Part shown: positions 5,176 to 64,000 of the stretch, one piece after another
Layout of the letters: the number at the start of each line of letters is the position of its first letter
Position numbering within the stretch: position 1 is the first letter of the stretch
Assembly: GCA_016934535.1 (NCBI GenBank)
Contig: JAFGSQ010000010.1
Location: forward strand, 1-64,000
Direction of reading: 5' to 3'
DNA: 64,000 nucleotides
From: a candidate division WOR-3 bacterium
Lineage (GTDB): Bacteria > SDB-A
Translations under genes and position numbers: made by a program
Notes under the pieces: generated by a model
Database searches by the model: none
Told to the model about the DNA's origin: nothing
What the model saw: the letters and a program-made list of their open reading frames with translations, nothing else

Positions 5176-8100
5176 TTATTTGAACTTCTTCTCTTTAAAA
5201 CACTCTATCCATCTGTCGGTGCTGTCGATGTTTTTATGTTCTTCCATCTCAATTTTTTTCAAACTGAAAGGTTTCAATCGGAAAAAATATTCAGGTGAGC
5301 CGAGAGCGTCCGCTTCTTTTTTCTTGTGGAAATGAGGTTTTTTATAGGAAAGAGATTCAATGGCGGATGCCCTGACAGAGCGTATTTTTTCTCCACCGGC
5401 TTTTTCGAGTATTTCCGAAAGAAAACTTACGTTGTCTTTTCCCGGTAAAGGTTCAAATATCCTGGCTGAAGTGAAAACCTCTCCAACCGCACTGATGAAA
5501 GACGAGTCAGATTCAAAGTGAGCCGAACAAGGCAGAAAAACGTCCGCTTTTCTCGCTGTTTGTGTTAATGTGAAGTCTGAAACAACTAAAAATTCTGCTT
5601 TTTCAAACACCTCTTTATGTTTCTCGTCCGAACAAGGGTCTTCCCTGAATATAAGTACTCCTTTCAACTTTTCACTTTTGCATAATGCTTGCCTGGCTTT
5701 ATTACCCGATTCAGGGGGTTCATAAATCCTATAAGCGAAGCTGTTTGAATGAGATCCGAGCAATATAAAGCCGTTTCCTTTTTGAAACAGTTTTCCGGTC
5801 AAAACGAAATACGAACAAATAAGCCGCAGAGTCTCCGGGTAGGAGTACTGATCGGAGTTAAGAAGAAAAACTACATTTTTTTCGGGAGCGGAAAGAGCGT
5901 CTACGAATTTTTTTATCATCCTTCTCTTTATACCCGTTGTCTCTTCGACGGTCCTGAGAGACCATTTCTTCAGCGATTCTTCAAAAGCGCTGAAATCCGA
6001 AGTTAATTTCGCTATTATTTCCCACTTCAATCCACCCTTGGATATAAGCGAGTTCAGCAGAGCCGCTATTAAATATCCGTCTTCACCGTTTTTAAAACAC
6101 AGGGACAAGTCCGCTTTTTTGGATAAAATACTGGCCTCGTTCGGGTCTATGAGAAAAACCGCCGCTCCTTCGGATTTTCTTTTGTTTATTCTCATGGCCG
6201 CGACAGGATTTCTATTTTCGATGTCTCCTATTGCGACAATCACATCGGCCATATCGAGATCGTTAAAATCTGCCGTCGATCTCCCGTATGTCTCGGGTAA
6301 ATCGTTCAGAAGTTCAGATTCAGGGGAAAAAAGAGCCGACAAGCTCGCGCAAACACCGGTTCTGAACGCATCTGAAATCTTGCGCAGCAAAAACATTTCT
6401 TCTGCGCTCGATTTCCTGGAAAAAAATACCGCGTTTGAATCCTGTTCCCCGGACGAAGACTTGAAACCCGAAACAACGGCATCAATCGCTGTTTCCCAAT
6501 CCGTCTCTACGAGACGGCCGTTTTTATTTATCATAGGTCTGGTCATTCTCGATCCGTCTTTGATCAATTCATGACCGAACCTGCCTCTGAAACAAAGAAG
6601 TCCTTTCGACGGACCCTCGACCTCTCCGTTTCTACCGGAACCTATTTTCCAGGATCCGGTCGGATCCATTTCAACCAAAAGATGACATCCGACCGAGCAG
6701 AAAGAGCAAACCGATTTTATTTTTTCCAGAAGGCGAGGGATGGGTTTTGCGGAAGACGGGACATTCGCGATGGCTCCCGTCGGACAGACGTCTATGCAAT
6801 TTCCGCAGTTTATGCAGTCCGTGTTCCTCAATCCTTCTCCCGGTATAGGGCACACCTGAGTATTGAAACCTCTGTCAATAAACCCGTAAACAGACGGTCC
6901 TACTATATCACTGCACGTTCTCACGCACCTTCCGCAGAGTATGCATTTATTCTGATCGAGAAGGATAAAAGGATGACTTCTGTCTACAGGCGTAATTCTG
7001 ACTTCTCCTAAAAACCTGCTGACGTCGGCGTCGTAAGCCGTAGCGTAATCCCGTAAGGCGCATGCATCCTGCAAGGAACAGCCGCATTCGAGGCATCTCG
7101 ATGCTTCGTTCGGAACGTCTTTTTCGTCTATCCCTTTTTCTACTTCACGTTCGTCCTCGATTCTTTCTTGAGGTTCTTCCTCAAGCATGGCGCTTCTTTT
7201 AAAAGGAGAGGCGAATTTATAGTAATTCTCGGGTGCGCGGCCGAATAAATCCCTCTTTGAAATAAATTTTGTCTTAAAATCAGACGTTTTTCCAGAGAGG
7301 TACCCGTCAATTGCTTTCGCGGCTTTTTGTCCCTGCGCTATCGCATCTATTACAACAGCGGGGCCGAGAACTGCGTCTCCTCCGGCAAACACATCTTCCT
7401 GGCTCGTTTTCAATGTCCTTTCGTCGGCGACTATTGTGTTCCATTTTGTTTTATCCAGGCCGATGCCGGCAAGATCGGGTTTTTGTCCGATGGCGGAAAT
7501 AAGATTGTTGCACTCAATTTCAAAATCGCTCCCGGGGACAGGCACGGGTCTTCTTCTGCCTGATGAGTCAGGTGCACCGAGCTCCATTTTCTGGCACTTG
7601 AGAGCTTTAAGTTCACCTTTTTTCCCGGTCAAAAATCCTGTCGGGGCGGTCAGGAATAAAAGTTCCACTCCTTCTTCCTCCGCTCCGTGAATTTCCAGGG
7701 GATCGGCCGGCATCTCGTTTCTTGTCCTTCTGTAAAGAAGAGTCACCTTAACGACGTCTTTCTCCCTGACGGCAGTTCTCGCGGCATCTATGGCAGTATT
7801 CCCTCCTCCGACTACAATCACTTTTCCTTTGAGCCGGACCTCTCCCTTTAACTGATGCTCTCTGAGATAGTCTATCCCCGAAAGGATTCCCGGTATCTTA
7901 TCCTCGCCTTCTATTCCCATGTTTTGACTCGACCAGGCGCCTGTGCCTATGAAAACCGCAGAAAAGCCTTCTTTTTTCAGGTCTTCGTAAGTGAAATCCC
8001 TTCCGTAACGAACTCCCGTCTTTACCTTCACTCCTAAGTCGAGAATGAATCCAATTTCCTTATCGAGAACGGATTTAGGAAGCCTGTATTCGGGGATTCC

Positions 8101-8802
8101 GTATCTGAGCATGCCGCCGAGTTTTTCCATCATGTCGTATACAGTTACTCCGTAACCCTCTTTTGCGAGATAATAAGCCGCGGTCAAACCCGCCGGTCCC
8201 CCTCCTATTACCGCGACGCTTTTTCCGTTGAATTTTTTCGGAGTTTCATTTTCGTGATGTTCTCTTTCGTAATCCGAAGCGTATCTTTTCAGATAATTGA
8301 TCCCGACCGGCTGTTCGTCCACTTCCTTTCTTCTGCAGTTAAGTTCGCATTTCCTGACGCATATCCTTCCGCATACTACAGGCAGGGGATTTTTTTCCCT
8401 TATGGTTTTGACTGCTTCAGAATACTTTCCCGCGGATATAAGGGCTATGTATGTCTGGACATCGACGTTAGCCGGACAACCTTCACTGCACGGAGCGACA
8501 CAGTCGGCGTAATGATTCGAAAGAAGCAGTTCGAGAGCCATCTTCCGCGTCTGATAAATCCTCTCATTGTAGGTGCTGACAACCATTCCTTCAGCGACCG
8601 GAGTCGAACAGGAAGGAACCAGTTTGTTCATACCCTGCACTTCGACGACGCAGAGAAAACACGAACCAAACGGAGGCAATTCAGGGTCGTGGCAGAGGGT
8701 CGGAATTTCGGCAATGTTGAATTCCCTGACAGTTTCAAGAATCGTGCTTCCCTGTCTGGCTTCAACCTGTTTTCCGTCTATTGTTAAATTGACAGTGGAC
8801 AT
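5176..8802 (-). CDS. NuoG-GltD-molybdopterin fusion, large electron-transfer subunit
   Basis: 1208 residues in four parts. (1) An N-terminal [2Fe-2S] ferredoxin domain (Cys37, 48, 51, 65). (2) A GltD/NfnB-type flavoprotein: a Cys-rich 4Fe-4S region at about 101-156, an FAD site GGGPAG at 200-205 and a downstream NAD(P) site VVGGGNTAIDAA. (3) Two further 4Fe-4S clusters near 620-690. (4) A molybdopterin-oxidoreductase domain whose 4Fe-4S motif is Cys699, 702, 706 and 737. Where formate dehydrogenases carry the Mo-ligating Cys/Sec and His before Ser-Pro, this protein has Leu824-Phe825-Ser-Pro, so formate oxidation is unlikely; the domain resembles NuoG. It starts 9 bases after the nuoF-like gene with a GGAG site. 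I infer an NAD(P)H/ferredoxin electron-exchange complex with the two upstream subunits; the physiological partner is unknown. Confidence 0.85.
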   Translation of the reverse strand: MSTVNLTIDGKQVEARQGSTILETVREFNIAEIPTLCHDPELPPFGSCFLCVVEVQGMNKLVPSCSTPVAEGMVVSTYNERIYQTRKMALELLLSNHYADCVAPCSEGCPANVDVQTYIALISAGKYSEAVKTIREKNPLPVVCGRICVRKCELNCRRKEVDEQPVGINYLKRYASDYEREHHENETPKKFNGKSVAVIGGGPAGLTAAYYLAKEGYGVTVYDMMEKLGGMLRYGIPEYRLPKSVLDKEIGFILDLGVKVKTGVRYGRDFTYEDLKKEGFSAVFIGTGAWSSQNMGIEGEDKIPGILSGIDYLREHQLKGEVRLKGKVIVVGGGNTAIDAARTAVREKDVVKVTLLYRRTRNEMPADPLEIHGAEEEGVELLFLTAPTGFLTGKKGELKALKCQKMELGAPDSSGRRRPVPVPGSDFEIECNNLISAIGQKPDLAGIGLDKTKWNTIVADERTLKTSQEDVFAGGDAVLGPAVVIDAIAQGQKAAKAIDGYLSGKTSDFKTKFISKRDLFGRAPENYYKFASPFKRSAMLEEEPQERIEDEREVEKGIDEKDVPNEASRCLECGCSLQDACALRDYATAYDADVSRFLGEVRITPVDRSHPFILLDQNKCILCGRCVRTCSDIVGPSVYGFIDRGFNTQVCPIPGEGLRNTDCINCGNCIDVCPTGAIANVPSSAKPIPRLLEKIKSVCSFCSVGCHLLVEMDPTGSWKIGSGRNGEVEGPSKGLLCFRGRFGHELIKDGSRMTRPMINKNGRLVETDWETAIDAVVSGFKSSSGEQDSNAVFFSRKSSAEEMFLLRKISDAFRTGVCASLSALFSPESELLNDLPETYGRSTADFNDLDMADVIVAIGDIENRNPVAAMRINKRKSEGAAVFLIDPNEASILSKKADLSLCFKNGEDGYLIAALLNSLISKGGLKWEIIAKLTSDFSAFEESLKKWSLRTVEETTGIKRRMIKKFVDALSAPEKNVVFLLNSDQYSYPETLRLICSYFVLTGKLFQKGNGFILLGSHSNSFAYRIYEPPESGNKARQALCKSEKLKGVLIFREDPCSDEKHKEVFEKAEFLVVSDFTLTQTARKADVFLPCSAHFESDSSFISAVGEVFTSARIFEPLPGKDNVSFLSEILEKAGGEKIRSVRASAIESLSYKKPHFHKKKEADALGSPEYFFRLKPFSLKKIEMEEHKNIDSTDRWIECFKEKKFK

Positions 8803-8811
8803 CTCAATCTC

Positions 8812-10584
8812 CTATTCTTTGTAAACGGCGTCTTTCGGGCAAACTTCCATGCATTTACCGCATGATATGCATAATTCGGCGTCTATGACATGCACTTTTT
8901 TAGGTTCTCCGGAAATTGCTTTCACCGGACATTTCTTTGCGCAAAGCGTACAACCTATGCATTTTTCAGGGTCTATAACGTATTTGACGAGTGCGGAACA
9001 TACTCTGGCAGGACATTTTTTGTCAATTATGTGCGCTTCGTATTCGCTCAAAAAATATTTCAGGGTCGTCAGAACGGGATTCGGGGCTGTCTGGCCGAGT
9101 CCGCATAGCGAAGCGGATTTTATTTTTTCCGCCAATTCGTAAAGTTTCGGGATGTCTTCACGTTCGCCTTCTCCATTGGTTATCCTGGTCAAAATCTCGA
9201 GCATTTTCTTGGTCCCGATTCTGCAGAAAGTGCATTTACCGCAAGATTCTTTCTGAGTGAAGCTGAGAAAAAATCTCGCAACGTCTACCATGCAAGTGTC
9301 CTCGTCCATGACTATCAGACCGCCGGATCCCATAATCGCTCCGGTTTTGACAATTTCCTCATAGTCAATGGAAATGCCGCACATATCAGCGGGTATGCAT
9401 CCTCCGGACGGTCCGCCCATCTGCACAGCTTTAAGTTTTTTTCCGTTTCTTATCCCTCCTGCGATTTCGTTGACGACCTCATTGATCGTCAGTCCCATGG
9501 GGACTTCTATCAATCCGCTTCTGTTTATCTTTCCCGCAAGAGCGAATACTTTCGTCCCTTTGCTTTTTTCAGTTCCGACACATGCGAATTTTTCGGCGCC
9601 GTTCATAATTATCCAAGGAATGTTCGCGAATGTTTCGACATTGTTAATATTAGTAGGCTTTCCCCACAACCCGCTGACTGCCGGAAAGGGCGGTCTTACT
9701 CTCGGCATCCCTCTTTTCCCTTCTATTGAAGCGATGAGAGCGGTCTCTTCTCCGCAAACGAAAGCTCCGGCTCCTTCTTTTATTCTCAATGAAAACGCGA
9801 AGGGACTCTTGAAAATCCCGCTTCCGAGGTATCCTCTTTCCGTGGCTGAATTTATAGCTATTTTCAGTCTTTCTATTGCCTTGGGATATTCCGCTCTGAC
9901 GTAAATGTAGCCTTCCTGAGCGCCGACGGCGTAGGCGCAAATAAGCATTCCTTCAATTACGGAATGAGGATCGCTTTCGAGGACGCTTCTGTCCATGAAA
10001 GCGCCCGGGTCGCCTTCGTCGGCGTTGCATATCACGTATTTTTTATCGCCTGGGCTCATCTTCGTAAAAAGCCATTTTCGTCCCGTAGGGAATCCGCCTC
10101 CGCCTCTGCCCCTCAGACCGCTGGCCGTTATTTCTTCAATGACTTCCTCGGGAGTGTAATCGAAAATGACTTTTTCAAGCGCTGCATAACCGTCCCTGTC
10201 GATGTAATCATCAATGCTTTCTGGATTTATAATGCCGCAGTTTCTTAGGACGACACGCATTTGTTTTGAAAAAAGATCGGCTTCCCCCTTCTTGTCGAAA
10301 TCATAGACGACAAGATCTTCTATCTCCCCGTCTTCAATGACCGCTTCTTCGAGAATCCGGACAGCTTTTTCGGTGTCAATTTCGCCGAATATTGTTTTTG
10401 TGCCGTCTTCTTTTCTCAACTCGACAAGGGGCTCTTTGTAGCACATTCCAATGCACCCTGTTTTTTCAAGTCTCACTTTGTCGTGCAGATTCTTTTCGTT
10501 TATAAGTTCCGCCAGATGATTCCAAACTTTTTCAGCTCCGGCGGATATTCCGCAAGTCCCCATTCCGACGAGCAGCGTTTTCAT
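8812..10584 (-). CDS. nuoF: NuoF/HydB-like NADH-oxidising flavoprotein subunit
   Basis: 590 residues, the length of HydB/HndC-type subunits rather than the shorter complex I NuoF. Order: an N-terminal thioredoxin-like [2Fe-2S] domain (residues 1-90; only one Cys of the usual first pair is present, in GMGTCG, then TGCIGMC); the FMN/NADH-binding domain with the Gly-rich loop GRGGGGFPTGRKW; the NuoF 4Fe-4S motif SCGKCTFCRIG; and a C-terminal pair of 4Fe-4S ferredoxin motifs (CIGCTLCAKKC and CISCGKCMEVC). It would oxidise or reduce NAD(H) and pass electrons by Fe-S clusters to the fused large subunit. It overlaps the nuoE-like gene by 4 bases. NADH use is inferred from family. Confidence 0.92.
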   Translation of the reverse strand: MKTLLVGMGTCGISAGAEKVWNHLAELINEKNLHDKVRLEKTGCIGMCYKEPLVELRKEDGTKTIFGEIDTEKAVRILEEAVIEDGEIEDLVVYDFDKKGEADLFSKQMRVVLRNCGIINPESIDDYIDRDGYAALEKVIFDYTPEEVIEEITASGLRGRGGGGFPTGRKWLFTKMSPGDKKYVICNADEGDPGAFMDRSVLESDPHSVIEGMLICAYAVGAQEGYIYVRAEYPKAIERLKIAINSATERGYLGSGIFKSPFAFSLRIKEGAGAFVCGEETALIASIEGKRGMPRVRPPFPAVSGLWGKPTNINNVETFANIPWIIMNGAEKFACVGTEKSKGTKVFALAGKINRSGLIEVPMGLTINEVVNEIAGGIRNGKKLKAVQMGGPSGGCIPADMCGISIDYEEIVKTGAIMGSGGLIVMDEDTCMVDVARFFLSFTQKESCGKCTFCRIGTKKMLEILTRITNGEGEREDIPKLYELAEKIKSASLCGLGQTAPNPVLTTLKYFLSEYEAHIIDKKCPARVCSALVKYVIDPEKCIGCTLCAKKCPVKAISGEPKKVHVIDAELCISCGKCMEVCPKDAVYKE

Positions 10585-11075
10585 TTTTTGTCTCCTTCAT
10601 TTTTTCTGTACGAATCCAGAATACTGCGAATCGAATCAGGGGTCAGTTTTCCGTAAGTTTCATCGTCAATCATTACAGCCGGAGAAAGGCTGCAGCAGCC
10701 GAGACACGCCACAGACTGCAGGGTGAATAATCCGTCTTCAGTGTTTTCGTTTTCTCCGACTGAAAGGTGCTCTTCGACCGCTTTCATAATCTCCTTCGAA
10801 CCGTTGACGTGACAGGCGGTGCCCTGGCAGACCTTGATTATATGCTTGCCTACAGGCTTTAGCCTGAACTGTTTATAAAACGTAGCCACTCCGTATATAC
10901 TGCTCTGTGGAATCGTTGTCGCTTCGGATATAACTGAGACGATTTCCGACGGCACGTATGAATAGATATCCTGAGCTGCCTGCAAAAGCGGTATTATTGA
11001 CCCTTTATCTTTGCCGTATCTCCTGAGTTGTCTTCTGAACATCTCGTCTTTAATCTGTTTCGATGCGGATACCAT
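10581..11075 (-). CDS. nuoE: NuoE/HydC-like [2Fe-2S] thioredoxin-fold subunit
   Basis: 164 residues, the usual length for NuoE. The four cluster ligands are visible as CQGTAC followed about 40 residues later by CLGCC. An N-terminal helical segment (about residues 1-60) precedes the thioredoxin-like fold. It is the first gene of a nuoE-nuoF-large-subunit operon; a GGAGG ribosome site precedes the ATG and the stop overlaps the nuoF start. The subunit normally relays one electron between FMN and partner clusters. The start region faces a divergent promoter for the O-antigen-ligase-like gene. Confidence 0.92.
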   Translation of the reverse strand: MVSASKQIKDEMFRRQLRRYGKDKGSIIPLLQAAQDIYSYVPSEIVSVISEATTIPQSSIYGVATFYKQFRLKPVGKHIIKVCQGTACHVNGSKEIMKAVEEHLSVGENENTEDGLFTLQSVACLGCCSLSPAVMIDDETYGKLTPDSIRSILDSYRKNEGDKK

Positions 11076-49925: not shown

Positions 49926-51290
49926 ATGCAGGTAAAATTGTCGGGTATAACATCGTTTGCGGACTCCGAAAAAGCCAAACAAGCGGAAGCCATGGCGACG
50001 TCTTTTGCCAGGTGCAGCAGGTCCTCCCTTTCTCTTTTGGAATTACGTAATCAAGCGCTGGCCGACGTCGAAAGCGCGAGAAAATCAAACGAAAAAATCA
50101 TTTTTGAAATGGGGCACAAATCCATCGCCGAACACGTCTGCCTCAATTTCGATTTATCCGGAATTACCAGATTCGCCGCCGAATTCATTGAACATCACAG
50201 GTTGGCGTCGTTCACCGAAAGATCTCAGCGCTACATGAACATATTTGAAAAACCGGTTGTACCTTATGAATTTCAGGAGCCCGAAAAAAAGAAAGATTTT
50301 TTGGACATCTCGGAAAAATCAACTGCGCTTTACGAAGAACTTTCTGAAAATCTTGAGAAAAAAAACCCTTCCAGGGGTGATCCTTCGAAAGAAGACTCAC
50401 GATACGCACTTACTTTGTCAGCTCCGACTCAATTGGGGATGACGGTCAACGCAAGATCTCTCGAGCATATAATTGTCACGCTCAGAAACTCCGGCCTCGC
50501 TGAAACAGAAAACATCGCCGGCCTGCTCGAGTCCGAAGCAAAAGAACACATCCCGTCTCTCATAAGGCACACTGCAGGAGCAACGGCACAATTGGCAGTA
50601 AGACCGATTTCCTCATCAAACGTGAATTCAGAGGCCGTAAAACTCGTCTCGTTCACTGAAAATGCCGATTCAAAAATCGCTTCGGGTTTGATTTTTGAGT
50701 CAGAAGGCGTTTTCCAGGAACCTGAAAAACTGTCCGAGCAGAGAAAAAAAGAAGTGATTTTAAATATTTATAAAAACCTGAACGTTCACGATCCGCTTCC
50801 CCGTTCTTTTGAACTCGCCGACTTCACTTTTTCTATAAATCTTTCTTCCTGCGCTTTCGCTCAGCTTAAGAGACACAGAATGATGACTTTATTAAACAGC
50901 TTACCTGATCCCGCCCTCGGATTCGTCATCCCGGAATCAGTAATTACAGCCGGTTATGAAAGCAAATTCCGCGAGCTGTCACTTCAATCGGAAGAAGCTT
51001 GGAAAAAAGACGGAATGAAAATATCATCTTCGTATCTTCTCGCAAATTCATTTAAAAGAACAGTACTCGTAAGGATGAATGCACGGGAACTTTGCCATTT
51101 TTCAAGATTGAGGATGGACAGTCACTCTCAATGGGAAATAAGAAAATTGGCCGACGATATAATCGGTCTGGTTTTTGAAAAAGCGCCCTTGTCTTCATTG
51201 TTGTGTTGCGGCAAAGACTCTTTTGAAAAAGTCAAAACTTCTCTCACCTCATCTCAATTTAACCGGTTTTCAAAGCGTCATTCTAAATAG
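49926..51290 (+). CDS. thyX: Tandem (double-domain) ThyX-like flavin-dependent thymidylate synthase
   Basis: 454 residues, about twice normal. First half: SITSFADS-like start, [10 protein letters not shown], then [14 protein letters not shown], close to the RHRxxSxNExSxRY signature with the first Arg changed to His, and [13 protein letters not shown]. Second half: RHRMMTLL, where the following signature residues are missing, and [14 protein letters not shown]. It would make dTMP using FAD, NADPH and methylene-THF. In such fusions the second half is often degenerate, as it seems here. No Shine-Dalgarno: the transcript leader is only about 11 bases. Confidence 0.82.
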
Positions 51291-51310: not shown

Positions 51311-54300
51311 ATGTCAGAAAATGAACAAAAAGCAGCCGAAATCCTGAACAAAAAACTCACCCTGGAGGGGAGAGAGCGTGAAATCTCCATGCTTGTTGCA
51401 AAACTGCAGTACACTCTTTCAGGTGAAGGGATATTCGCTCTTGTTACGGGTGCAGACGGAATAGGAAAAACCCGTTTTCTCGAAGAATTCCGATCGAAAA
51501 TCCTCTGCCCTCCTTTCATAGTTCTTCACGGTAAAGCTTCGGGAAAAGTTACCTTCATGTCCGTGTTTTCCTTTTTGATAAGCTCTTTTCTGAATTCTCA
51601 AAAAGGAAAATCCAAACTAATCGCTTCGCTGATCCCTGCCGACACCGCAAGGATCATATCCGCTTATTGCCCTTTGATTTCCGAACATTATCCGTATTCC
51701 GTTCTAAAAGTACCCCCGGCCGGAAAAGAAGCCGTTTTTGATTCTTTTTTAAAAATCATAAAGAAAATATCCTCATTGTGGCCCCTGGTAATAGTTATTG
51801 ACGATGCGGATTATATGGACTCAGGTTCAATCGAATTTCTCGAATATCTGGGATCCAACATCTATGACTGTTCCATCTTTGTGATTGCCGGCGCACTAAA
51901 CACAGGATTTCTCTCTTCAGCCAGATTTTCTTCCGAACTAATCGTATTGAAACCTTTGGATGTGAAAATGGTGGAGGATTCACTACGTTGTTTTTTTCAA
52001 AAACATATTAACCGTGAATTCGTAGAATGGGTTCACTTCCAAACAAAAGGAATTCCTTTTTTCATTGACGAAATTATAAAAACTCTCTTGCGGTCAAACA
52101 TAATATATTACAAAGACGGGACATGGAAAGTTGACGATTTCTATGAGGACGTAAAACTTCCGGAAAACGTCGCTGTTTTTTTGAAAGAGAAATTTGAAAA
52201 ACTTTCAAAAGAAGAATATGCTTTGCTTTCTTCGGTTTCAGTCCTGGAAAGCGCTTTCCCGGAACAGGCCGCCGTATTTATTTCAGAAAACATTGTTTCC
52301 GACCCGATTAAGACGATTTCGTCACTCGTGAATAAAAATTTTCTTGTCAAGGACGAAAACTCTCTGACCGATTTTCAAAATCCGCTGATTCGAAAAGCGA
52401 TTTTCGAAATCACAAAAGAAAGTGACAAAAAACGATCCCACAGAAAAGCAGCCAGGTTTTTCTCGAAAGGTAAATTTCAGGACCCGCTTTTAGAAACCTA
52501 CCATCTCACGAGGTTTTTGACGTCTGATGAATATAATATTCCACTCGCAAAGAAAATTGAAGCGGCCGCCGATCATTACAAAAAAATTCAGAATTGGGAA
52601 AGTGTTGCGGAATACATGAAAATGCTGGTTCAATTGATGAAAGAAATTCCAGAATTCAGTGATACCGACGTTCTTGAAGTCCAATCAAAGCTGCTTATAA
52701 TTTTCTCTAACCTTAAATCTGAAGCCTTTAATGAAAAGCAATACACGGATTTAATAACCCGGCTTTTTTCGGCGGGTCTTATTCAAGACGCTGTCTCTTT
52801 GTCAAACTTCCTTTCGAGGAATTATCTCGAAAGATTCGAGTATAAAAAAGCCAGGAAACTGATGGACGAGACAATCTCCCTTATACCGGAGAGAATGAAA
52901 GAAGAAAAGTGGAAACTGAAATACAACAACTGCCTTTTACTCACAAAACAGGGACATTACACAAAAGCCTCTTCTGAATGCGAAATCCTGATAAAAGAGA
53001 TCGATTCAAAAATAAGCCCGTCAGGAAAATGGTACCCGATGAATCTTTTAGGTTCGATATTTTTTCTCACGGGTAAACTACAAAAAGCGCGTAACATATA
53101 TGAGCTTTCTGTTGAAATAGCCGACAAAGCCGGTGATAAAAACAGCAAAAGCGTCTCTTTCGGAAATCTTGGTCTGGTTCTTCGCGAAATCGGGGAAATC
53201 GACCTCGCTCTGAAATTCACGAGAGAGAGCTTTGAATTATTCCATGAAACAGGAAATACAATGAAAATCGCCAAAACTCACGATTTTCTGTCGAGCTTTG
53301 CTCTCATAAAACAAGATTTAGCCCTTTCAAAAATGCATTCTTTTACTTGCAGGGAACTTGCCGAAAAAAAGGGGATGAGTGCACTCGTTCTTGAATCCAG
53401 AATCAAACTCTGCCGGATACTGCTGGAAGAGATGGATTTCAGCGGAGCCGAAAAAGAATTTTTGGACATCTCGCGTGAGCATTTCGGAGAATTGGAAAGT
53501 TCGTTGAAAACCGAGCTCTCTCTTACAGGTTCGTATATACAGCAGGAAAAACGCCAATTTAATGAAGCCATGAACTCACTTGAACAGACGCTTGAACTGT
53601 GTAAAAAAAACAAGATGAAAATCCTCGAGGCAGTCGTTCTTTCGAGAAAAGCTCAAATTCGGGCTCTTCTCCGCAACCCCAAAAAAGCGGTCGATGAATT
53701 CATTTTGGCTGAAAACATACTTAAAAAATCAGGAGCGGTTTTCTCTCTCGCAAGGCAGAAAGCCGAATTCGGTCTGTGTTTAAAAGGTGAAAAAGGGAAC
53801 AAGTATCTTCTTGAGGCGTTTGATCTTTTCGAAAAGATGCGTTTGCCTGAACAGACGGAATATTTCGCCGCCAGATCCGGTTTGAAAACGCCTTTTCCAA
53901 ACCTTTCTTTGACCGGAGTTAAAAAAAAATCAAAGAGTAAAAAACTTAAAATAACCACCTTCGGCGGTTTGACGGTGGAAGACACTGAATTGAAAAGAGT
54001 TTTTTCAGACAGGGAATGGGGATCGAGAAAAGCGAAGGAACTTCTCGCCCTCCTGCTGGTTTTTTCCGGTAGTAAAGGCGCGACTAGAGAAATGCTTGAA
54101 AATCAGCTCTGGCCTGACAAAGGACCCAAAGAATCCCAAAACAATTTTCACGTTACCCTGACGCATTTAAGAAAGACAATCGGCGCAGAAGCAGTTATCT
54201 GCGAAGAACCTTTTTACAGGCTCGACAACAGTAAATTCACCGTAGATTGCTACGAATTCGATAAAATACACGCTTTTTTCGAACAGGAAAAAAACAGAGC

Positions 54301-54685
54301 TAAATCTCATTCTGCCGAACGATACGCGAGAGAAGCCGTCAGTCTTTACAAAGGGGATTTTCTTCCGGAGATGTACGCTCTTGCAATTGACGACGAGCAA
54401 TTGATTTACAGAGAAAAAATCAAAGAAGCCTTATTGTGGCTCGCTCAGATAGCCGCGGACAGAAGCGACATCAACGAACTTAGAAATTTTTCTCATACTC
54501 TTCTCTCCACGGATCCTTTCGACGAGAGAGCACACAGATTTTTGATGGAATCCTACATTCTCGCGGGCGACAGGAACAGCGTTTTGAACCAATACAAAAG
54601 ACTTTGCAGGCTTCTGGATGCCGAACTCGGCGTTACACCGGAACAAAAAACCCGCGATCTTGTAAAAGGCATCGAAGCCACTTAA
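51311..54685 (+). CDS. Large ATPase-TPR regulator with C-terminal wHTH-BTAD domain
   Basis: 1124 residues. An AAA/STAND-type ATPase (residues 15-350) with Walker A GADGIGKT at 47-54 and Walker B-like LVIVIDDADYMDSGS. A long helical TPR region (about 380-860). Then an OmpR-type winged helix (about 875-960, KKLKITTFGGLTVED ... SRKAKELLALLLVFSG) and a BTAD bacterial transcriptional activation domain to the end (DERAHRFLMESYILAGD). SARP regulators have the wHTH-BTAD pair at the N-terminus; here it is at the C-terminus. A GGAG site precedes the start. It probably controls transcription in response to an unknown signal. Confidence 0.85.
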   Translation: MSENEQKAAEILNKKLTLEGREREISMLVAKLQYTLSGEGIFALVTGADGIGKTRFLEEFRSKILCPPFIVLHGKASGKVTFMSVFSFLISSFLNSQKGKSKLIASLIPADTARIISAYCPLISEHYPYSVLKVPPAGKEAVFDSFLKIIKKISSLWPLVIVIDDADYMDSGSIEFLEYLGSNIYDCSIFVIAGALNTGFLSSARFSSELIVLKPLDVKMVEDSLRCFFQKHINREFVEWVHFQTKGIPFFIDEIIKTLLRSNIIYYKDGTWKVDDFYEDVKLPENVAVFLKEKFEKLSKEEYALLSSVSVLESAFPEQAAVFISENIVSDPIKTISSLVNKNFLVKDENSLTDFQNPLIRKAIFEITKESDKKRSHRKAARFFSKGKFQDPLLETYHLTRFLTSDEYNIPLAKKIEAAADHYKKIQNWESVAEYMKMLVQLMKEIPEFSDTDVLEVQSKLLIIFSNLKSEAFNEKQYTDLITRLFSAGLIQDAVSLSNFLSRNYLERFEYKKARKLMDETISLIPERMKEEKWKLKYNNCLLLTKQGHYTKASSECEILIKEIDSKISPSGKWYPMNLLGSIFFLTGKLQKARNIYELSVEIADKAGDKNSKSVSFGNLGLVLREIGEIDLALKFTRESFELFHETGNTMKIAKTHDFLSSFALIKQDLALSKMHSFTCRELAEKKGMSALVLESRIKLCRILLEEMDFSGAEKEFLDISREHFGELESSLKTELSLTGSYIQQEKRQFNEAMNSLEQTLELCKKNKMKILEAVVLSRKAQIRALLRNPKKAVDEFILAENILKKSGAVFSLARQKAEFGLCLKGEKGNKYLLEAFDLFEKMRLPEQTEYFAARSGLKTPFPNLSLTGVKKKSKSKKLKITTFGGLTVEDTELKRVFSDREWGSRKAKELLALLLVFSGSKGATREMLENQLWPDKGPKESQNNFHVTLTHLRKTIGAEAVICEEPFYRLDNSKFTVDCYEFDKIHAFFEQEKNRAKSHSAERYAREAVSLYKGDFLPEMYALAIDDEQLIYREKIKEALLWLAQIAADRSDINELRNFSHTLLSTDPFDERAHRFLMESYILAGDRNSVLNQYKRLCRLLDAELGVTPEQKTRDLVKGIEAT

Positions 54686-56902: not shown

Positions 56903-58099
56903 GTGAATTTAATCAAACTTAGAAAAAATGCCGAAAAAAAAGCGGTACGCGGTTATCCCTGGATATGGGGCAATGAAATTGACCTGGTCTCCTCTTCTCT
57001 CACGCCCGGTTCCATCGCCGACGTGTATGATTCGGAAAATAAATTTCTCGGAAAAGGATATTACAATCCCTCATCTTCAATCACCGTTCGTTTTCTAACG
57101 AGACGCGACGAGCCTATCGATCTCGCTTTTATCAAGAGAACTATAAATAAAGCGTGGCATCAGAGAAAGCTGATATACCCGCTGGAAAATTGCCTTCGGG
57201 TCTTTTTTTCTGAAGCAGACGGTATTCCCGGCCTTGTTATTGACAAATACGAAGACGCCGTGGTTTTTCAGCTGTCAACCCTCGGCGCTGACAAGATGAG
57301 AGATCTCATTCTGGAGTCCGTCATCGAAATTTTTAATCCGTCTTTTGTCGTCGAAAGATCTGACTCTCCAATCAGGATCAAGGAAGGGCTCGAACAATTC
57401 AAAGGTTGCGTTTACGGCAAAATTGACAGGAAAAAACCGGTGAAAATCAACGGAGTTTTATTTTCTGTTGACCTTCTAGAAGCTCAGAAAACAGGATTCT
57501 TTCTCGATCAAAGAGAGAACTACACTCTGCTTTCCGGTTTTTCCAATTCAAAAAGAGTTCTCGATGCTTTCTGCAACAATGGAGCCTTCGGAATCCATGC
57601 TGCCTTTTACGGTGCAAAAGAAGTCGTTTTCCTCGATTGTTCAAAAAAATCCCTCGAAACAGCTGAAGAAAATTTTTCTCTGGGCTCATTTAGCGCATCG
57701 GCTTACTTCGTGAAGGCCGACGCTGTTTCGTATTTAAAAAAAATGGAAAAGACCGGAGAAAAGTTCGACGTAATCATTTTAGATCCTCCGGCTTTCATTA
57801 AAGACAGAAAAAAAATCAAACAGGGTGTTAAAGGATACAAAGAAATCAACATGCGTGCCATGGACATGCTTTCAGATGAAGGATTTCTCGTCAGCTGTTC
57901 CTGCTCACAGCATCTGGACGTTTCGTCTTTCATCGGCATGCTCAAATCCGCATCGGCCGACCGTAGAACAAGTTTCGACCTTCTGTCCCTGACATTTCAG
58001 CCGAAAGATCACCCGGCTCTCTTGCCCATGGAAGATTTTTGGTATCTGAAATGCGCTGTTTTAAGAAAAACGGGATTCAATAACCGTATTTTTCCCTGA
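56903..58099 (+). CDS. RlmI-type rRNA m5C methyltransferase
   Basis: 398 residues from GTG 56903. N-terminal PUA domain (1-85, RKNAEKKAVRGYPWIWGNEI), a middle domain with GIPGLVIDKY, and a Rossmann methyltransferase with VLDAFCNNGAFGIHAA and the catalytic ILDPPAF and SCSCSQH motifs. It methylates a cytosine in 23S rRNA using SAM. No Shine-Dalgarno is clear. The 3' end overlaps the converging cyclase gene by 23 bases. Confidence 0.9.
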   Translation: MNLIKLRKNAEKKAVRGYPWIWGNEIDLVSSSLTPGSIADVYDSENKFLGKGYYNPSSSITVRFLTRRDEPIDLAFIKRTINKAWHQRKLIYPLENCLRVFFSEADGIPGLVIDKYEDAVVFQLSTLGADKMRDLILESVIEIFNPSFVVERSDSPIRIKEGLEQFKGCVYGKIDRKKPVKINGVLFSVDLLEAQKTGFFLDQRENYTLLSGFSNSKRVLDAFCNNGAFGIHAAFYGAKEVVFLDCSKKSLETAEENFSLGSFSASAYFVKADAVSYLKKMEKTGEKFDVIILDPPAFIKDRKKIKQGVKGYKEINMRAMDMLSDEGFLVSCSCSQHLDVSSFIGMLKSASADRRTSFDLLSLTFQPKDHPALLPMEDFWYLKCAVLRKTGFNNRIFP

Positions 58100-61000
58100 A
58101 AGCCTTTATTTTGCCCTCTTTATCCCCGAGATTTTTAACGACGTCGAGATATTCACCCGCTTTTTTGAAGGAGTTGCAATCCGCAAAAAGGCAGGCGATA
58201 TTATAGGCTATCTCGCTTCTCAGGGATGGATTTCCCAATTTTTCGGATCTTTCGAAAGCCTTGTCGAGATAATCGTGGCTTTTTGAAAAATCGTTTATTC
58301 TCCTGTAAAGCTTTGCTATTTCGAAAAGAATTTCGGTCTCGATTTCCAAATCGTTCCGTATTTCGCAGAGTTTTAATGCCTCGTTGTAATATCTGACAGC
58401 TTCCTCGGCCTCCGACATCCTGTATTTCAAATCTCCAGTCTGGCAAAGTGCTTTTATTTCCCAGCCAATGTTCCCTGTCTCTTTGGCCAATTCGAGATAT
58501 TCTCTGCTGTACTTCCACGCCTCGTCAAATTTGTCTTCGTGTTTTTTCATTTCGCTGATATTGAGAAGACTGTAAGCTTCGCCTTCTTTTATTCCCGCTT
58601 CCCTGAATATCTTCATGGCTTCAGTAAAATGTTTTTCGGCATCGACTATTTTTCCCTTGATGGCTTCCAGGTTGCCGAGATTTATCTGCGCTCCGGCTTT
58701 CTCTTCGTTAAATTCGTTCTTCAGGGCGATTTCGTAGCTTTTGTCGAAACATCTTTCGGCTTCTTCGTATTTTTTCTGCTGCGCCAAAATTGCCCCTATG
58801 TTCGACAGGGCCAAAGCTTCAAATTTCTTGTCACCGATGTCTATCGCTATATTTTTGGCTTTTTCGTAGCTTTCGAGGGCTTCTTTGAAATCTTTCTTTG
58901 TCGCATGAAGGACGCCCATGTTGCCGAGTGTTCTGCTCTCCATGCTTTTTTCACCCGCTTTTTTCGCGTATTCGAGCGCTTTTTCAAAGCAAAGCAACGC
59001 GTTGTCAAATTCCCTTTCTCCGAGATATACCGTCCCGAGTTCGTTGTTTGCGTCGGCAAGAGAATTGTCACCGCCTGATTTTTCAAAAATCTCAATGACG
59101 TTCGAAATCCTGTCCCGTGCCTCTTTTAATCTGCCTGTCTTTTTGAGTATCCTGCCCTCGGTCAACTCGGCTTCAGCCATTTTCTGGTCATTTCCTTCTT
59201 TTTTGTGATGTTCCGCGAGTTTTCTGCATATCCGCAATAATTCGTGATTGGCATTTTTTTTGAGCATTATCTTCATATATTCGTGTGCGTATTCCGCCCA
59301 TTTTCTCCATTCTTCGGCTTTCTCCGACTGTTCGACAAGAAGCTTCGTGTGCATTTCAAGCCCTCTGGAAAGTTTCGTTTCAGCGACTTCGAAAATCTCT
59401 TTGTGAAGTTTTTTTCTTTCCGAAGGCAAAAACAATTGGTAGGCCGCTTCTCTCAGCATGGCATGCCTAAACATGTATATATCTTCGTAATTGAGTTCTC
59501 TGGCAATGATCTGCCCCTGCTCTCCCTTGTCGAGGAAAAATTCTAATTCTTCCTTTATTCCTTCGTCTATAATGGACCTCAGGATGTCTACGAGAAATCT
59601 TTCTCCTATGACAGCGGCTTTCTTTATTATTTCGCGCAGTTCGTAGTCCATCGAGTCGAGTCTCGCCGTCAGAAGATCGCAGAGAGAATCAGGAAGTCTT
59701 TCAATTTTCCCCGATATTTCCATAGGGGAGCCCTTGAGCATGTCCTGTTCTTTTAAAAATACGATAGTTTGTTCGAGGAAAAAAGGATTTCCCTGCGTGT
59801 TGTCGAAAAGATAATTTTTTGCCGCTTCAGACGGTTCTCCGCCTGCAATCTGTTCGAACATTTTTACAATAAGGTCCTGCGTTTCAAACGCACGAAGATC
59901 TATTTCCGTCTCTTTTACTCTTCTGTCGAGATTTATTCTCGGTTTGCCTCCTTTTTCGTCAAATCGTGAAGTGCATATGACGGCAAAAGGGTAATCGGGC
60001 ACGTTTCTTGTTGCGGCTGAAAGCCAATCGATCGTCAATTCGTCGACATTCTGCAAATCATCCACGAATACAATCAAAGGCGTTTTCCTCGACAGAGCTT
60101 TTATGAATTCTTTCAGCGCAAAAATCTGGTTTTCTTTTTTTCTTTCTTCGCCTTGCATTTCGTAGATTTCATCGGCGGGAGGCATTCCGATTATATCTGC
60201 AATGGCCGGGGTTTTCTTCGAAGACCATTGTATGCCGGTTTTTTCAATTTCATCCATGAGTTTATCAGCCGACAAATAATTTTTGTCGAGATTGAAAAAA
60301 TCTATAAGCCATTGCGACACGGGAAACCATGGATACCTGGACGTGTCTTCGCATTGGAGATGCATCACCGTAATCGCTGTTCCTTCTCTTTTGTATTGTT
60401 CTATAAGCTCCCACACAAGCCTGCTTTTTCCAATGCCTGCGTCACCGTATATGTAGCAAACTCCCGCGTTTGTTTTTTGACCGACAATACACGAAGTAAA
60501 ATCGGTTAATCTTCTCAATTCATTATCCCTGCCCACCATTTTGTATTTGAAGACAATGCCCCTGCTTTCCTTAAGATTTTCTATTTCAAATATTTTCTCG
60601 GGGGTTGACCTGCCCTTAAAGAGCATTTCCTTGTAAGGCTTGAAACACGCGTCTTTATCGGTTCTCGATTTAACTCTTTCTGACGCTAAAATTTCTCTCT
60701 CTCCGCAGGCGCTCATTATTCTCGCCGAAGTATTGACAACATTTCCGAGGCAAGTCCATTCGAATCGTTCGGATCCGCCCGTTCTTCCGGCATAAACAAG
60801 TCCGCTGTCAATACCCGCCCTCAGGTTGAATCCGAGGCTCTTGATCTTCAGTGAAAATTTAACGGCGAGGTCTTCGGGATTTTCCTTGGCATCGGGCGCT
60901 CCGAACAAAACCATAGCCACCGTCCCTTTGTCTCCGTAATCCACTTTGTTGAGGAAACCGCCGTATTTAATTGCCGTTTCATAAATGTTCCTTATGACCT

Positions 61001-61688
61001 CGTCCTGTTTTGCCGTTTCAGTTTCGTCTATCTTTATGAAAACGGGGGTAGCGTGCCGGAGTTCTCCTCTTTCACCGGCTTTCATTACTGACTCAGACAC
61101 AAATTTTGCGACTATTTCGTCAGGAACGGACAATTTCACTTCTTCGTTCTGCGGCATGACTGTTTTCAAGCTTCCTTTCCAGCCGATTTTTCCCGCCGTG
61201 ACATTCTCTGCTTCCCTTACTGCCTCCGATATGGCATGGCCGGTGAAAAGATACGAGTTTAAAGTCCCGTCTAATGCGATGACCCTCCAGTCTATACCTC
61301 CGGCTCCCACGCCGCATTTGCAGGTGAAATTGAGTTCACCAAGTTCCGTCTCCCGCCTGCCTTCCCTTTCGAAAAAATAAGTCAATATAACGGCAGCGGA
61401 ATATGCTTTTTTCCCGTCGTCCCCGGGGAAAATCGCTGTAAAGGCGTCTCCGGCAAACGTAGTTATGTGGCCTCCGTATTTATGGACAGTTTTGACAGGC
61501 AAATCAAAAACCCACAGAATCTGTCTTGAGATTTCTTCGGCGCCAGCGTCTCCTTTTTTGAAGAACATCTCTGTCATTTTTGTAAAACCGCCAAGATCAG
61601 TGAAAAGAGCTGAGCCCTGCGTAACTCCAGAAAGCTCACCCCTGGAAAATTTATCTGAAAGAAAAAACGGCAAACAGCTGTTCATCAT
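58077..61688 (-). CDS. Soluble-adenylyl-cyclase-like protein: tandem class III cyclase, ATPase, TPR
   Basis: 1203 residues. First cyclase domain (about 20-190): metal Asp31 (LFTDLGGFT) and Asp81 (FAGDAF). Second cyclase domain (about 212-375): FLNKVDYGDKG and the transition-state residues Asn319 and Arg323 (VVNTSAR). Together they can form one composite active site, as in mammalian soluble adenylyl cyclase. Then an AAA/STAND ATPase with Walker A GDAGIGKS at 415-422 and LIVFVDDLQNVDE, and about ten TPR repeats to the end. It overlaps the antiporter gene by 4 bases. It likely makes cAMP in response to bicarbonate, calcium or an ion signal; the ligand is inference. Confidence 0.88.
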   Translation of the reverse strand: MMNSCLPFFLSDKFSRGELSGVTQGSALFTDLGGFTKMTEMFFKKGDAGAEEISRQILWVFDLPVKTVHKYGGHITTFAGDAFTAIFPGDDGKKAYSAAVILTYFFEREGRRETELGELNFTCKCGVGAGGIDWRVIALDGTLNSYLFTGHAISEAVREAENVTAGKIGWKGSLKTVMPQNEEVKLSVPDEIVAKFVSESVMKAGERGELRHATPVFIKIDETETAKQDEVIRNIYETAIKYGGFLNKVDYGDKGTVAMVLFGAPDAKENPEDLAVKFSLKIKSLGFNLRAGIDSGLVYAGRTGGSERFEWTCLGNVVNTSARIMSACGEREILASERVKSRTDKDACFKPYKEMLFKGRSTPEKIFEIENLKESRGIVFKYKMVGRDNELRRLTDFTSCIVGQKTNAGVCYIYGDAGIGKSRLVWELIEQYKREGTAITVMHLQCEDTSRYPWFPVSQWLIDFFNLDKNYLSADKLMDEIEKTGIQWSSKKTPAIADIIGMPPADEIYEMQGEERKKENQIFALKEFIKALSRKTPLIVFVDDLQNVDELTIDWLSAATRNVPDYPFAVICTSRFDEKGGKPRINLDRRVKETEIDLRAFETQDLIVKMFEQIAGGEPSEAAKNYLFDNTQGNPFFLEQTIVFLKEQDMLKGSPMEISGKIERLPDSLCDLLTARLDSMDYELREIIKKAAVIGERFLVDILRSIIDEGIKEELEFFLDKGEQGQIIARELNYEDIYMFRHAMLREAAYQLFLPSERKKLHKEIFEVAETKLSRGLEMHTKLLVEQSEKAEEWRKWAEYAHEYMKIMLKKNANHELLRICRKLAEHHKKEGNDQKMAEAELTEGRILKKTGRLKEARDRISNVIEIFEKSGGDNSLADANNELGTVYLGEREFDNALLCFEKALEYAKKAGEKSMESRTLGNMGVLHATKKDFKEALESYEKAKNIAIDIGDKKFEALALSNIGAILAQQKKYEEAERCFDKSYEIALKNEFNEEKAGAQINLGNLEAIKGKIVDAEKHFTEAMKIFREAGIKEGEAYSLLNISEMKKHEDKFDEAWKYSREYLELAKETGNIGWEIKALCQTGDLKYRMSEAEEAVRYYNEALKLCEIRNDLEIETEILFEIAKLYRRINDFSKSHDYLDKAFERSEKLGNPSLRSEIAYNIACLFADCNSFKKAGEYLDVVKNLGDKEGKIKAFREKYGY

Positions 61689-63445
61689 GTGGCCGCCTGC
61701 AATGAAATCAGTGTGTTTCGGATTTCTTCACCGCTTAAATTTTTAAAGCTGTCAGAGTTTTTGCACGCGTGCGCTATATACGACAAAGCGCCGAGGTGCA
61801 TTTCCGGAGAAAGCGTCGGGGAAACGAGAAGGATAATTACATTTACTTTTTTCGCCTTTTTCCCCCACGATATTCCTTCTTCTGAAATTGCTATGACAAT
61901 TTTCGGCTTTTTCATTATTCGCAGTCTGCAATGAGGAAGCACGACTCCATCCGAGAGGATTGTCTCCTGCAGATTTTCTCTGACATTCGAAGCGTCTATC
62001 ACAGCCATTCGGTCGGGGAAAAATCCCTTTTTCTCGCCCTCTCGCGCCAGTGCGTCTATGGTCATTTTCCTGTCATAAATTCCGTCGAGGCGGATGCAGG
62101 AGATGTCATCTTTACTGAAACGATGGCGTTTCGGCAAAACTCTCGGACTCTTTACCATATCTTCTTCACCGATTACCCATGTCTGCCATTTTTTTATGTA
62201 TCTTTCAGTGACAAAAACCCCGAACACTGAAAATAATACAAGGGAGGGAATGACTATGTCCGCGACAGTCTGCCCTTTTTCACCGAGAATGCTGACGAGA
62301 AAAGCCGATTCCACCGCCGCGACGCCGTCCTGAGGAACCATGAGCGGAGGTACGCAATTTACTATTTTCGGTTCATTTTTCATAAGTTTCAAAACGAATT
62401 TTACACTGACGTACTGAGAAACGCCTCTGCTTATTATGTAAATTAAAATCGGCGAAAGAATTGGCGTGCTGAACTTTGCAAAATCAATCTCCGCTCCGAT
62501 AAGAGCGAAGAACAGCAGGTTGAAAGCGGGCATAATGTTCTCGATTTTCATAGAGTCAAAGGCCATCGATCCCGAAAAATTTGATATCAGCGCTCCTGCG
62601 ACCAGAACCGCTATGAGAAAAGGCAGGTGGAGAAGTATTGATAATCCTGTAATGACGGTTACAATCCCCGCTACAGTCAAAAACATCTCCATGGAAGGAG
62701 CCGGGTGCTCGGAAAGAAGCCTGACCATAAAAAAATCCATGCGCCTCTTTTTATCGCTATTTCCGATCCCGTGAATCAGGATCCAGAGAAATACGAACGC
62801 CCCTATGCCTATCAATACAGCCACACCGATGTCTTTGGTGGTTTGCGTAAAGGATAGTTCCCCGCCTGTCTGTGTTTTTATCTGAATTAAAACGGAAAAA
62901 ATGAGTATTGCGAAAAGGTCGACTATGGCCATGATGTTTCCTATTATATTTCTTATGTCTCCTTCGATTTCATATCTGTTCATTATCGCAAAAATAATTG
63001 CCGGAGACTGAGCTATTGCTATAGACGCTATGAGAAGGGATATAAACAAATCTATTCCGGATTCTTCAAACATCTTCCCGTAAAAATAAAATGAGAAAAA
63101 AACCACAGTAAATGTCATTGCGACGTTGGCGATCGAAACCCAAAAAACTTTTTTCAGGATTTTTCTCATTCTTGTGAAATGAAGTTCTTCCCCTATGCCG
63201 AAAGCGATCAGCGAAAGGAAAGCAAATATAATAAATTGAAAAGAAACAAATTCTTTCGAATATACTTCGGCAACTTTGTCGGAAATGTTTCTCATAACGA
63301 GGATAGTGAGAGGACCTATAACGATTCCGCCCAGTATCTGTCCGATTATCTCGCTGATTCTCATCCTTCTTGCCACTCTTCCGCCGAGGTTTCCCGCAAG
63401 AATCAGCAATCCGATTGTCAGTATGTGAAGACCGTAGCTATTCAT
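61685..63445 (-). CDS. Cation/proton antiporter (CPA2-like) with C-terminal EIIA-type domain
   Basis: 586 residues. About twelve membrane helices cover 1-410, with the transport-type Asp in helix IMAIVDLFAIL and paired broken-helix Gly/Pro segments. The C-terminal 140 residues form a PTS EIIA(type 2)-like domain: LSDGVVLPHCRL with the phospho-His near residue 505, and ILLVSPTLSPEMHLGALSYIA. Phosphorylation or nucleotide sensing there could gate ion exchange. No PTS genes are nearby. Overlaps both neighbours (8 bases with the TPR gene, 4 bases with the cyclase gene). Confidence 0.88.
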   Translation of the reverse strand: MNSYGLHILTIGLLILAGNLGGRVARRMRISEIIGQILGGIVIGPLTILVMRNISDKVAEVYSKEFVSFQFIIFAFLSLIAFGIGEELHFTRMRKILKKVFWVSIANVAMTFTVVFFSFYFYGKMFEESGIDLFISLLIASIAIAQSPAIIFAIMNRYEIEGDIRNIIGNIMAIVDLFAILIFSVLIQIKTQTGGELSFTQTTKDIGVAVLIGIGAFVFLWILIHGIGNSDKKRRMDFFMVRLLSEHPAPSMEMFLTVAGIVTVITGLSILLHLPFLIAVLVAGALISNFSGSMAFDSMKIENIMPAFNLLFFALIGAEIDFAKFSTPILSPILIYIISRGVSQYVSVKFVLKLMKNEPKIVNCVPPLMVPQDGVAAVESAFLVSILGEKGQTVADIVIPSLVLFSVFGVFVTERYIKKWQTWVIGEEDMVKSPRVLPKRHRFSKDDISCIRLDGIYDRKMTIDALAREGEKKGFFPDRMAVIDASNVRENLQETILSDGVVLPHCRLRIMKKPKIVIAISEEGISWGKKAKKVNVIILLVSPTLSPEMHLGALSYIAHACKNSDSFKNLSGEEIRNTLISLQAAT

Positions 63446-64000
63446 TGTACAGTATGTACTCGATGGAATCCGCTTTGTAATACAGTGTCTTGGCTCTGAC
63501 CGTATCTCCTCCCTTTTCCAGAAGTCTTGCGTAAGCTCTCCAAAGCTCAGGATCTTCAGGTCTCTTTTCGGACAACAGCCTGAAAAGCCTTTCAGCTTTC
63601 ACAAGATCTGCCTGCTCTTCGTTTACTGCGGCGAGAGAATATAGAAAACGGATGTTATCCGGTTCGATTTGCACCAAGCGTTCAAGAATGCCCTCGGCAT
63701 CGGCAAGTTTTCTTCTCTGTTGTAATAAAAGAGCGAGTGAATACCGGGCGTAAACGTCTGAGGAATCCGAAAGGACAGCTTTTGAATAAAAATACTCCGC
63801 TTTTTCAAGGTCCCCGATCTTCCTGTAAATGTTTCCCATGGCCAGATTCCCATGAAAGTTCAGTGAGTCAGCGACAATAGATATTTCGGCCGCCTCGTGA
63901 GCTTTCTCTGTTTCTCCGCATGCAAACAGAGCCCTGGCGTACAATCCGTTCGCCGTTGGAGATTCCGGGTTTATTTCAACCGCTTTTTTACTCTCAGAAA
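63438..64000 (-). CDS. TPR protein (partial, continues past the window)
   Basis: The frame is open to the last base; at least 187 C-terminal residues are visible. They form at least five tetratricopeptide units (SESKKAVEINPESPTANG, EYFYSKAVLSDSSDVYARYSLA, ILERLVQIEPDNIRFLYSLA, LFRLLSEKRPEDPELWRAYA). The TTG at 63944 is an internal Leu, not the start. The overlap with the antiporter gene places it in the same operon, upstream. Function cannot be given without the N-terminus. Confidence 0.78.
   Translation of the reverse strand, partial: SESKKAVEINPESPTANGLYARALFACGETEKAHEAAEISIVADSLNFHGNLAMGNIYRKIGDLEKAEYFYSKAVLSDSSDVYARYSLALLLQQRRKLADAEGILERLVQIEPDNIRFLYSLAAVNEEQADLVKAERLFRLLSEKRPEDPELWRAYARLLEKGGDTVRAKTLYYKADSIEYILYNE

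Follow-up and report, generated by a model that had tools for sequence, protein, structure and literature searches.

A soluble-adenylyl-cyclase-like enzyme beside a cation/proton antiporter in a candidate division WOR-3 bacterium: functional coupling is not supported

In a 64,000-nucleotide stretch of DNA from a candidate division WOR-3 bacterium (GTDB lineage SDB-A; assembly GCA_016934535.1, contig JAFGSQ010000010.1, positions 1 to 64,000 of the forward strand; hereafter the window), a protein resembling mammalian soluble adenylyl cyclase (sAC) is encoded directly behind a cation/proton antiporter. We consider it probable that the protein is an active sAC-type cyclase under the control of its STAND-type ATPase and tetratricopeptide repeats (TPRs), and that the antiporter is an unrelated neighbour and not a dedicated partner. 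The first-pass annotation had proposed that the two form a minimal ion/pH-sensing signalling unit; such coupling, if true, would place an animal signalling pair inside a bacterial operon. Our analysis does not support it: the cyclase is of a known kind, and the genes around it look like ordinary neighbours. An expansion of sAC-type cyclases is found in this deep, sparsely sampled phylum, and the window's copy, which is among the most conserved of them, is a reasonable target for learning how STAND/TPR modules control sAC-type catalysis.

The cyclase and its parts are as follows.
58077 to 61688, minus strand: sAC-like class III adenylyl cyclase, 1203 residues, in the order C1, C2, STAND ATPase, TPR (open reading frame, Pfam, phmmer)
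61200 to 61619, minus strand: cyclase domain C1, residues 24-163, with metal-binding Asp31 and Asp81 and with Thr77 at the position of sAC Lys95 (alignment with sAC)
60570 to 61055, minus strand: cyclase domain C2, about residues 212-373, with Lys248, Thr312, Asn319 and Arg323 (Pfam, phmmer, alignment with sAC)
59769 to 60539, minus strand: AAA_16/STAND-type ATPase region, residues 384-640 (Pfam, motifs)
58119 to 59126, minus strand: TPR array, about residues 855-1190 (Pfam TPR_12, seven stretches)

Human sAC (ADCY10) is the best phmmer match among PDB chains (E about 1e-18), with C1 and C2 both aligned, and Pfam finds AAA_16 (E 1.2e-17) and TPR_12 downstream of Guanylate_cyc, bearing out the cyclase-ATPase-TPR order that had been described. 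The Guanylate_cyc model (PF00211) scores the second cyclase domain only, and the first is missed by Pfam. The metal-, base-, phosphate- and transition-state-binding residues of sAC are known (PMC12867704, Table 1; PMC12250328). In an alignment that includes the paralogues, sAC D47, D99, K334, T405, N412 and R416 correspond to D31 and D81 in C1 and to K248, T312, N319 and R323 in C2, confirming the complementary active-site residues noted earlier. We compared the window's own genome (G000, 2.2 Mb) with the other three genomes of its phylum examined here (G001, G002 and G003); all six catalytic positions are intact in the window's cyclase and in its G001 and G002 orthologues. The ATPase region carries Walker A (GDAGIGKS) at 415, VFVDD at 540, TSRFD at 573 and GNPFF at 633, so that at the level of motifs, Walker A and B and STAND-like motifs followed by C-terminal TPRs mark a STAND ATPase with a TPR sensor. 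STANDs with TPR sensors are inducer-controlled switches (PMC6468293).

Judged by its architecture and active-site residues, the cyclase is truly sAC-like, and it is probably a conserved active enzyme. C1 and C2 of one chain would form a single asymmetric active site that converts ATP to cyclic AMP (cAMP). Its activity would be governed by a STAND-type ATPase switch that the C-terminal TPR array reads by way of a ligand or a partner protein, and cyclic-nucleotide-binding proteins encoded at other loci would in turn read the cAMP. The cyclase domains could instead be catalytically dead and serve as a regulatory scaffold, as may be the case for some paralogues, a few of which have key residues changed (L025, N412 to I; L118, D47 to N and R416 to M). 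However, the six catalytic positions are intact in the cyclase and in two full congeneric orthologues, making this the least probable reading of the protein.

With mammalian sAC the cyclase shares the tandem C1-C2 arrangement, the metal-, base-, phosphate- and transition-state-binding residues, and a downstream ATPase that leads into a C-terminal helical-repeat region. Unlike ADCY10, it is bacterial and distant in sequence, has a clear TPR array, carries Thr in place of Lys95 and does not conserve Arg176. It also resembles bacterial class III cyclase-AAA-TPR proteins, including TIGR03903 (TOMM system kinase/cyclase), which has the same order and matches residues 228-840 with an E value of 1.7e-49; the cyclase nevertheless falls outside that equivalog, since it reaches 169 of the required 706 bits and lacks a kinase domain.

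Lys95 and Arg176 are the bicarbonate residues of human sAC (PMC12867704, PMC12250328). The Lys95 position is Thr in all three orthologues that cover the region (G000, G001, G002), and the Arg176 position varies among orthologues, in a part of the alignment that is uncertain by one residue. Human-type bicarbonate control is therefore unlikely; direct sensing of pH by the cyclase is conceivable. Since one or other of these two residues is replaced in non-mammalian sAC as well (PMC12867704), the missing bicarbonate residues limit what can be claimed about regulation, not the homology itself.

Whether the antiporter belongs to the same system is a question of gene order, for which the following features are needed.
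C10:64165-65001: dapF (PF01678), just outside the window, overlapping the TPR gene at its upstream end
from 63438, minus strand: TPR lipoprotein gene, cut by the window edge at 64000, with its true start at about C10:64175 (open reading frame, Pfam, adjoining contig sequence)
63438 to 63445, minus strand: overlap of the TPR and antiporter genes, 8 nucleotides
61685 to 63445, minus strand: CPA2-type cation/proton antiporter with EIIA tail, 586 residues (Pfam; TIGR00932 below cut-off)
61685 to 61688, minus strand: overlap of the antiporter and cyclase genes, 4 nucleotides (ATGA); the ATGA junction is also present in G001
56903 to 58099, plus strand: PUA/S-adenosylmethionine (SAM) methyltransferase (RlmI-like), convergent with the cyclase gene with a 23-nucleotide overlap; the arrangement is also found in G002
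49926 to 51290, plus strand: thyX, whose G003 orthologue is convergent with the cyclase orthologue

The open reading frames and coordinates agree with the earlier description of three minus-strand genes overlapping by 8 and 4 nucleotides. The TPR gene is part of this run as described; it continues past the window, and the run extends beyond it to dapF. Because dapF overlaps the TPR gene upstream, the run holds at least four genes, dapF-TPR-antiporter-cyclase. The TPR protein is called a lipoprotein because it and its relatives have lipobox-like signal sequences. Gene overlap by itself is unremarkable here, as overlaps join 17 of the window's 40 pairs of co-directional neighbours, seven of them by exactly 4 nucleotides, and one overlapping pair in an overlap-rich genome is weak evidence of function.

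Mapping the run across the phylum, we found the cyclase orthologue in all four genomes and the cyclase-antiporter adjacency in two, G000 and G001. G001 has all four genes in the same order, with the antiporter 79% and the cyclase 69% identical to those of the window. G002 has dapF-TPR-cyclase, with about 57 nucleotides between TPR and cyclase genes and a cyclase 75% identical; its genome contains no match to the antiporter at E 1e-20. G003 has dapF-TPR-antiporter followed by an MBL-fold hydrolase, and was the sole match in a contig scan with the antiporter as query. Its cyclase orthologue (43% identity over 520 residues, the next paralogues reaching 26-28%) is found on a different contig, where it converges with thyX, a gene that is near the cyclase in the window as well. 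G003 (LKUE01000064.1) is a metagenome-assembled genome deposited as ‘Desulfuromonas sp. SDB’; in the taxonomy used here it groups with G000 in a separate small phylum, and the NCBI name appears to be wrong.

Each partner is thus found without the other in a relative, and on this gene order the pair does not appear to be a conserved operon. On the simplest history, the cyclase would follow dapF-TPR-antiporter because two separate syntenic blocks, dapF-TPR-antiporter and cyclase-thyX, adjoin each other in this genus, and G002 would have lost its antiporter. In a tree of 63 paralogues, the three full-length members of the window's orthogroup (G000, G001, G002) show terminal branches of 0.14-0.28, where the median is 0.57, and the cyclase is therefore well kept whatever its neighbour. 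In members of this genus the cyclase gene may share a transcript with the antiporter run and be translationally coupled to it. The two proteins could serve one condition, such as cation or pH stress, in a co-expressed operon with no action on each other, and the shared strand and the overlaps kept in G000 and G001 would fit such an arrangement. However, the same run includes dapF and a TPR lipoprotein, which have no such theme, G002 keeps the rest without the antiporter, and overlaps are common in the window. We regard a stress operon as unlikely.

G000 has 13 tandem sAC-like genes and four PF00999 genes, and the window's cyclase and antiporter are the one touching pair among them. Matches to the cyclase at E 1e-25 occur in 60 of 386 sampled genomes, showing that similar proteins are common. 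In 56 genomes outside the phylum we compared 86 sAC-like matches, for which no more than the two best candidates of each genome were scored, with 111 PF00999 matches, and none of the 86 was next to a PF00999 antiporter. The closest pair, in G243, is separated by 4.7 kb holding three genes, and the next closest by 7.6 kb. This comparison used the Pfam PF00999 model; a locally built antiporter hidden Markov model overlooked a distantly related PF00999 gene in G243. The first-pass annotation had said that its proposal would fall if homologues elsewhere were never adjacent to an antiporter, and this is what we find outside the genus, in the sample searched. The neighbours of the other G000 paralogues are heterogeneous, often kept between species and often abutting. 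They include an anti-sigma/sigma pair, M16 peptidases, a metallophosphatase, an MgtC-like protein, EF-G and a sugar acyltransferase, names that were assigned by eye from sequence, most without a family search.

The antiporter, in turn, has its own candidate for regulation. As the earlier description held, it combines an exchanger domain with an EIIA tail: Pfam finds only Na_H_Exchanger (PF00999; E 4.5e-24, 85.4 bits against a cut-off of 26.2) and PTS_EIIA_2 (E 1e-16). The CPA2 model TIGR00932 gives 32.4 bits, under its cut-off of 238; ‘CPA2-type’ therefore denotes resemblance, and superfamily membership stands on PF00999. Its two parts are as follows.
62201 to 63388, minus strand: membrane domain, residues 20-415 (alignment, hydropathy)
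61733 to 62080, minus strand: EIIA/PtsN-like cytoplasmic tail, residues 456-571, carrying the EIIA-type PH motif at 504-505 (Pfam, alignment)

Asp176, in an I-V-D-L motif, takes the place of the ion-binding Asp of the core helix and is invariant in six aligned antiporters, and the residue before it is Val where DD, ND and QD motifs have Asp, Asn or Gln. In Escherichia coli, PtsN regulates the K+/H+ antiporter YcgO, a precedent for antiporter control of the EIIA type (PMC11808508). In that system PtsN is a protein in its own right and acts on a CPA1 antiporter, whereas here EIIA is fused to a CPA2-like antiporter, whose regulation would more likely run through this tail than through the cyclase. 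A phosphotransferase system (PTS) may drive the EIIA tail. G000, G002 and G003 encode HPr and EI, but neither was detected in G001, which keeps an EIIA-tailed antiporter. The G003 antiporter gene (L083:913-2679, G003:C64) has an in-frame TAA that splits the EIIA part, either a sequencing error or a real split.

Animal sperm offer the model for coupling, in which an antiporter alters local pH or ions, an sAC-like cyclase responds, and cAMP feeds back on transport. In the sea urchin, sAC is directly controlled by pH and works with the exchanger SLC9C1, to which cAMP binds directly, and the reciprocal link between the two depends on this binding (PMC12867704). The window has in common with this circuit a cyclase and an antiporter of the Na+/H+ exchanger superfamily, and true sAC homology together with overlapping genes joined by ATGA in two species speaks for a similar unit. 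However, SLC9C1 binds cAMP (PMC12867704), whereas in the window's antiporter Pfam finds an EIIA tail but no cyclic-nucleotide-binding domain. The replacement of Lys95, the variable Arg176 position, the persistence of either partner alone in relatives, the lack of adjacency in the 56 genomes outside the phylum, and the equally close, unrelated neighbours of other paralogues also argue against it, and we judge a unit of this kind very unlikely. A narrower version, in which the CPA2-EIIA antiporter and the sAC-type cyclase form a unit specific to this genus, sensing pH or cations without a bicarbonate site and with the antiporter loss in G002 secondary, is even less probable.

Cyclic-nucleotide signalling in this phylum may be better traced through another paralogue. 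Each of the four genomes encodes five proteins with a cyclic-nucleotide-monophosphate (cNMP)-binding domain. The gene of another sAC-like paralogue is oriented divergently to that of a cNMP_binding-GGDEF protein in G000 (L030:1814-6893, G000:C24) and G002 (L113:3352-8370, G002:C23). In G001 (L200:85-1188) and G003 (L201:75-1142) the same reader protein is encoded where a contig begins, ahead of the same genes, and it is therefore present in all four genomes; the candidate cyclases for the pairing in G001 and G003 are likewise at contig starts. The arrangement resembles XC_0250/XC_0249 of Xanthomonas, linked genes whose products are a TPR-containing class III cyclase and the cNMP-GGDEF protein that it feeds (PMC3770947). 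We see here an apparent relay from cAMP or cGMP to cyclic di-GMP, a better-supported signalling pair than cyclase and antiporter, and one that supports the view that sAC-like proteins of the phylum may signal through cyclic nucleotides, with no antiporter involved.

Several points weigh against our interpretation of an active cyclase beside an unrelated antiporter. The phylum sample of four genomes is small for a test of gene order, and the G003 cyclase orthologue is only a C-terminal part at a contig end, its upstream neighbour lying beyond the contig. The ATGA overlap kept in two species (G000 and G001) makes some selection on co-expression possible. A single-sequence AlphaFold model of C1-C2 was useless (predicted local distance difference test, pLDDT, 32; predicted template modelling score, pTM, 0.31).

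Beside its 13 tandem cyclase-ATPase-TPR proteins, G000 has several with one recognisable cyclase domain, and numbers are similar in G001, G002 and G003. In G002, sAC-like genes also stand in two tandem pairs whose ends abut or overlap (L112:4036-11744 and L115:4523-12189). Elsewhere in the window, positions 5176-11075, where open reading frames of similar sizes had suggested a second copy of the operon, hold a hydrogenase/NADH-dehydrogenase-like cluster. Near the cyclase, on the plus strand at 51311-54685, lies a STAND-type regulator, an AAA_16-TPR protein with a C-terminal BTAD/SARP activator domain, whose ATPase matches TIGR03903, as does that of the cyclase.

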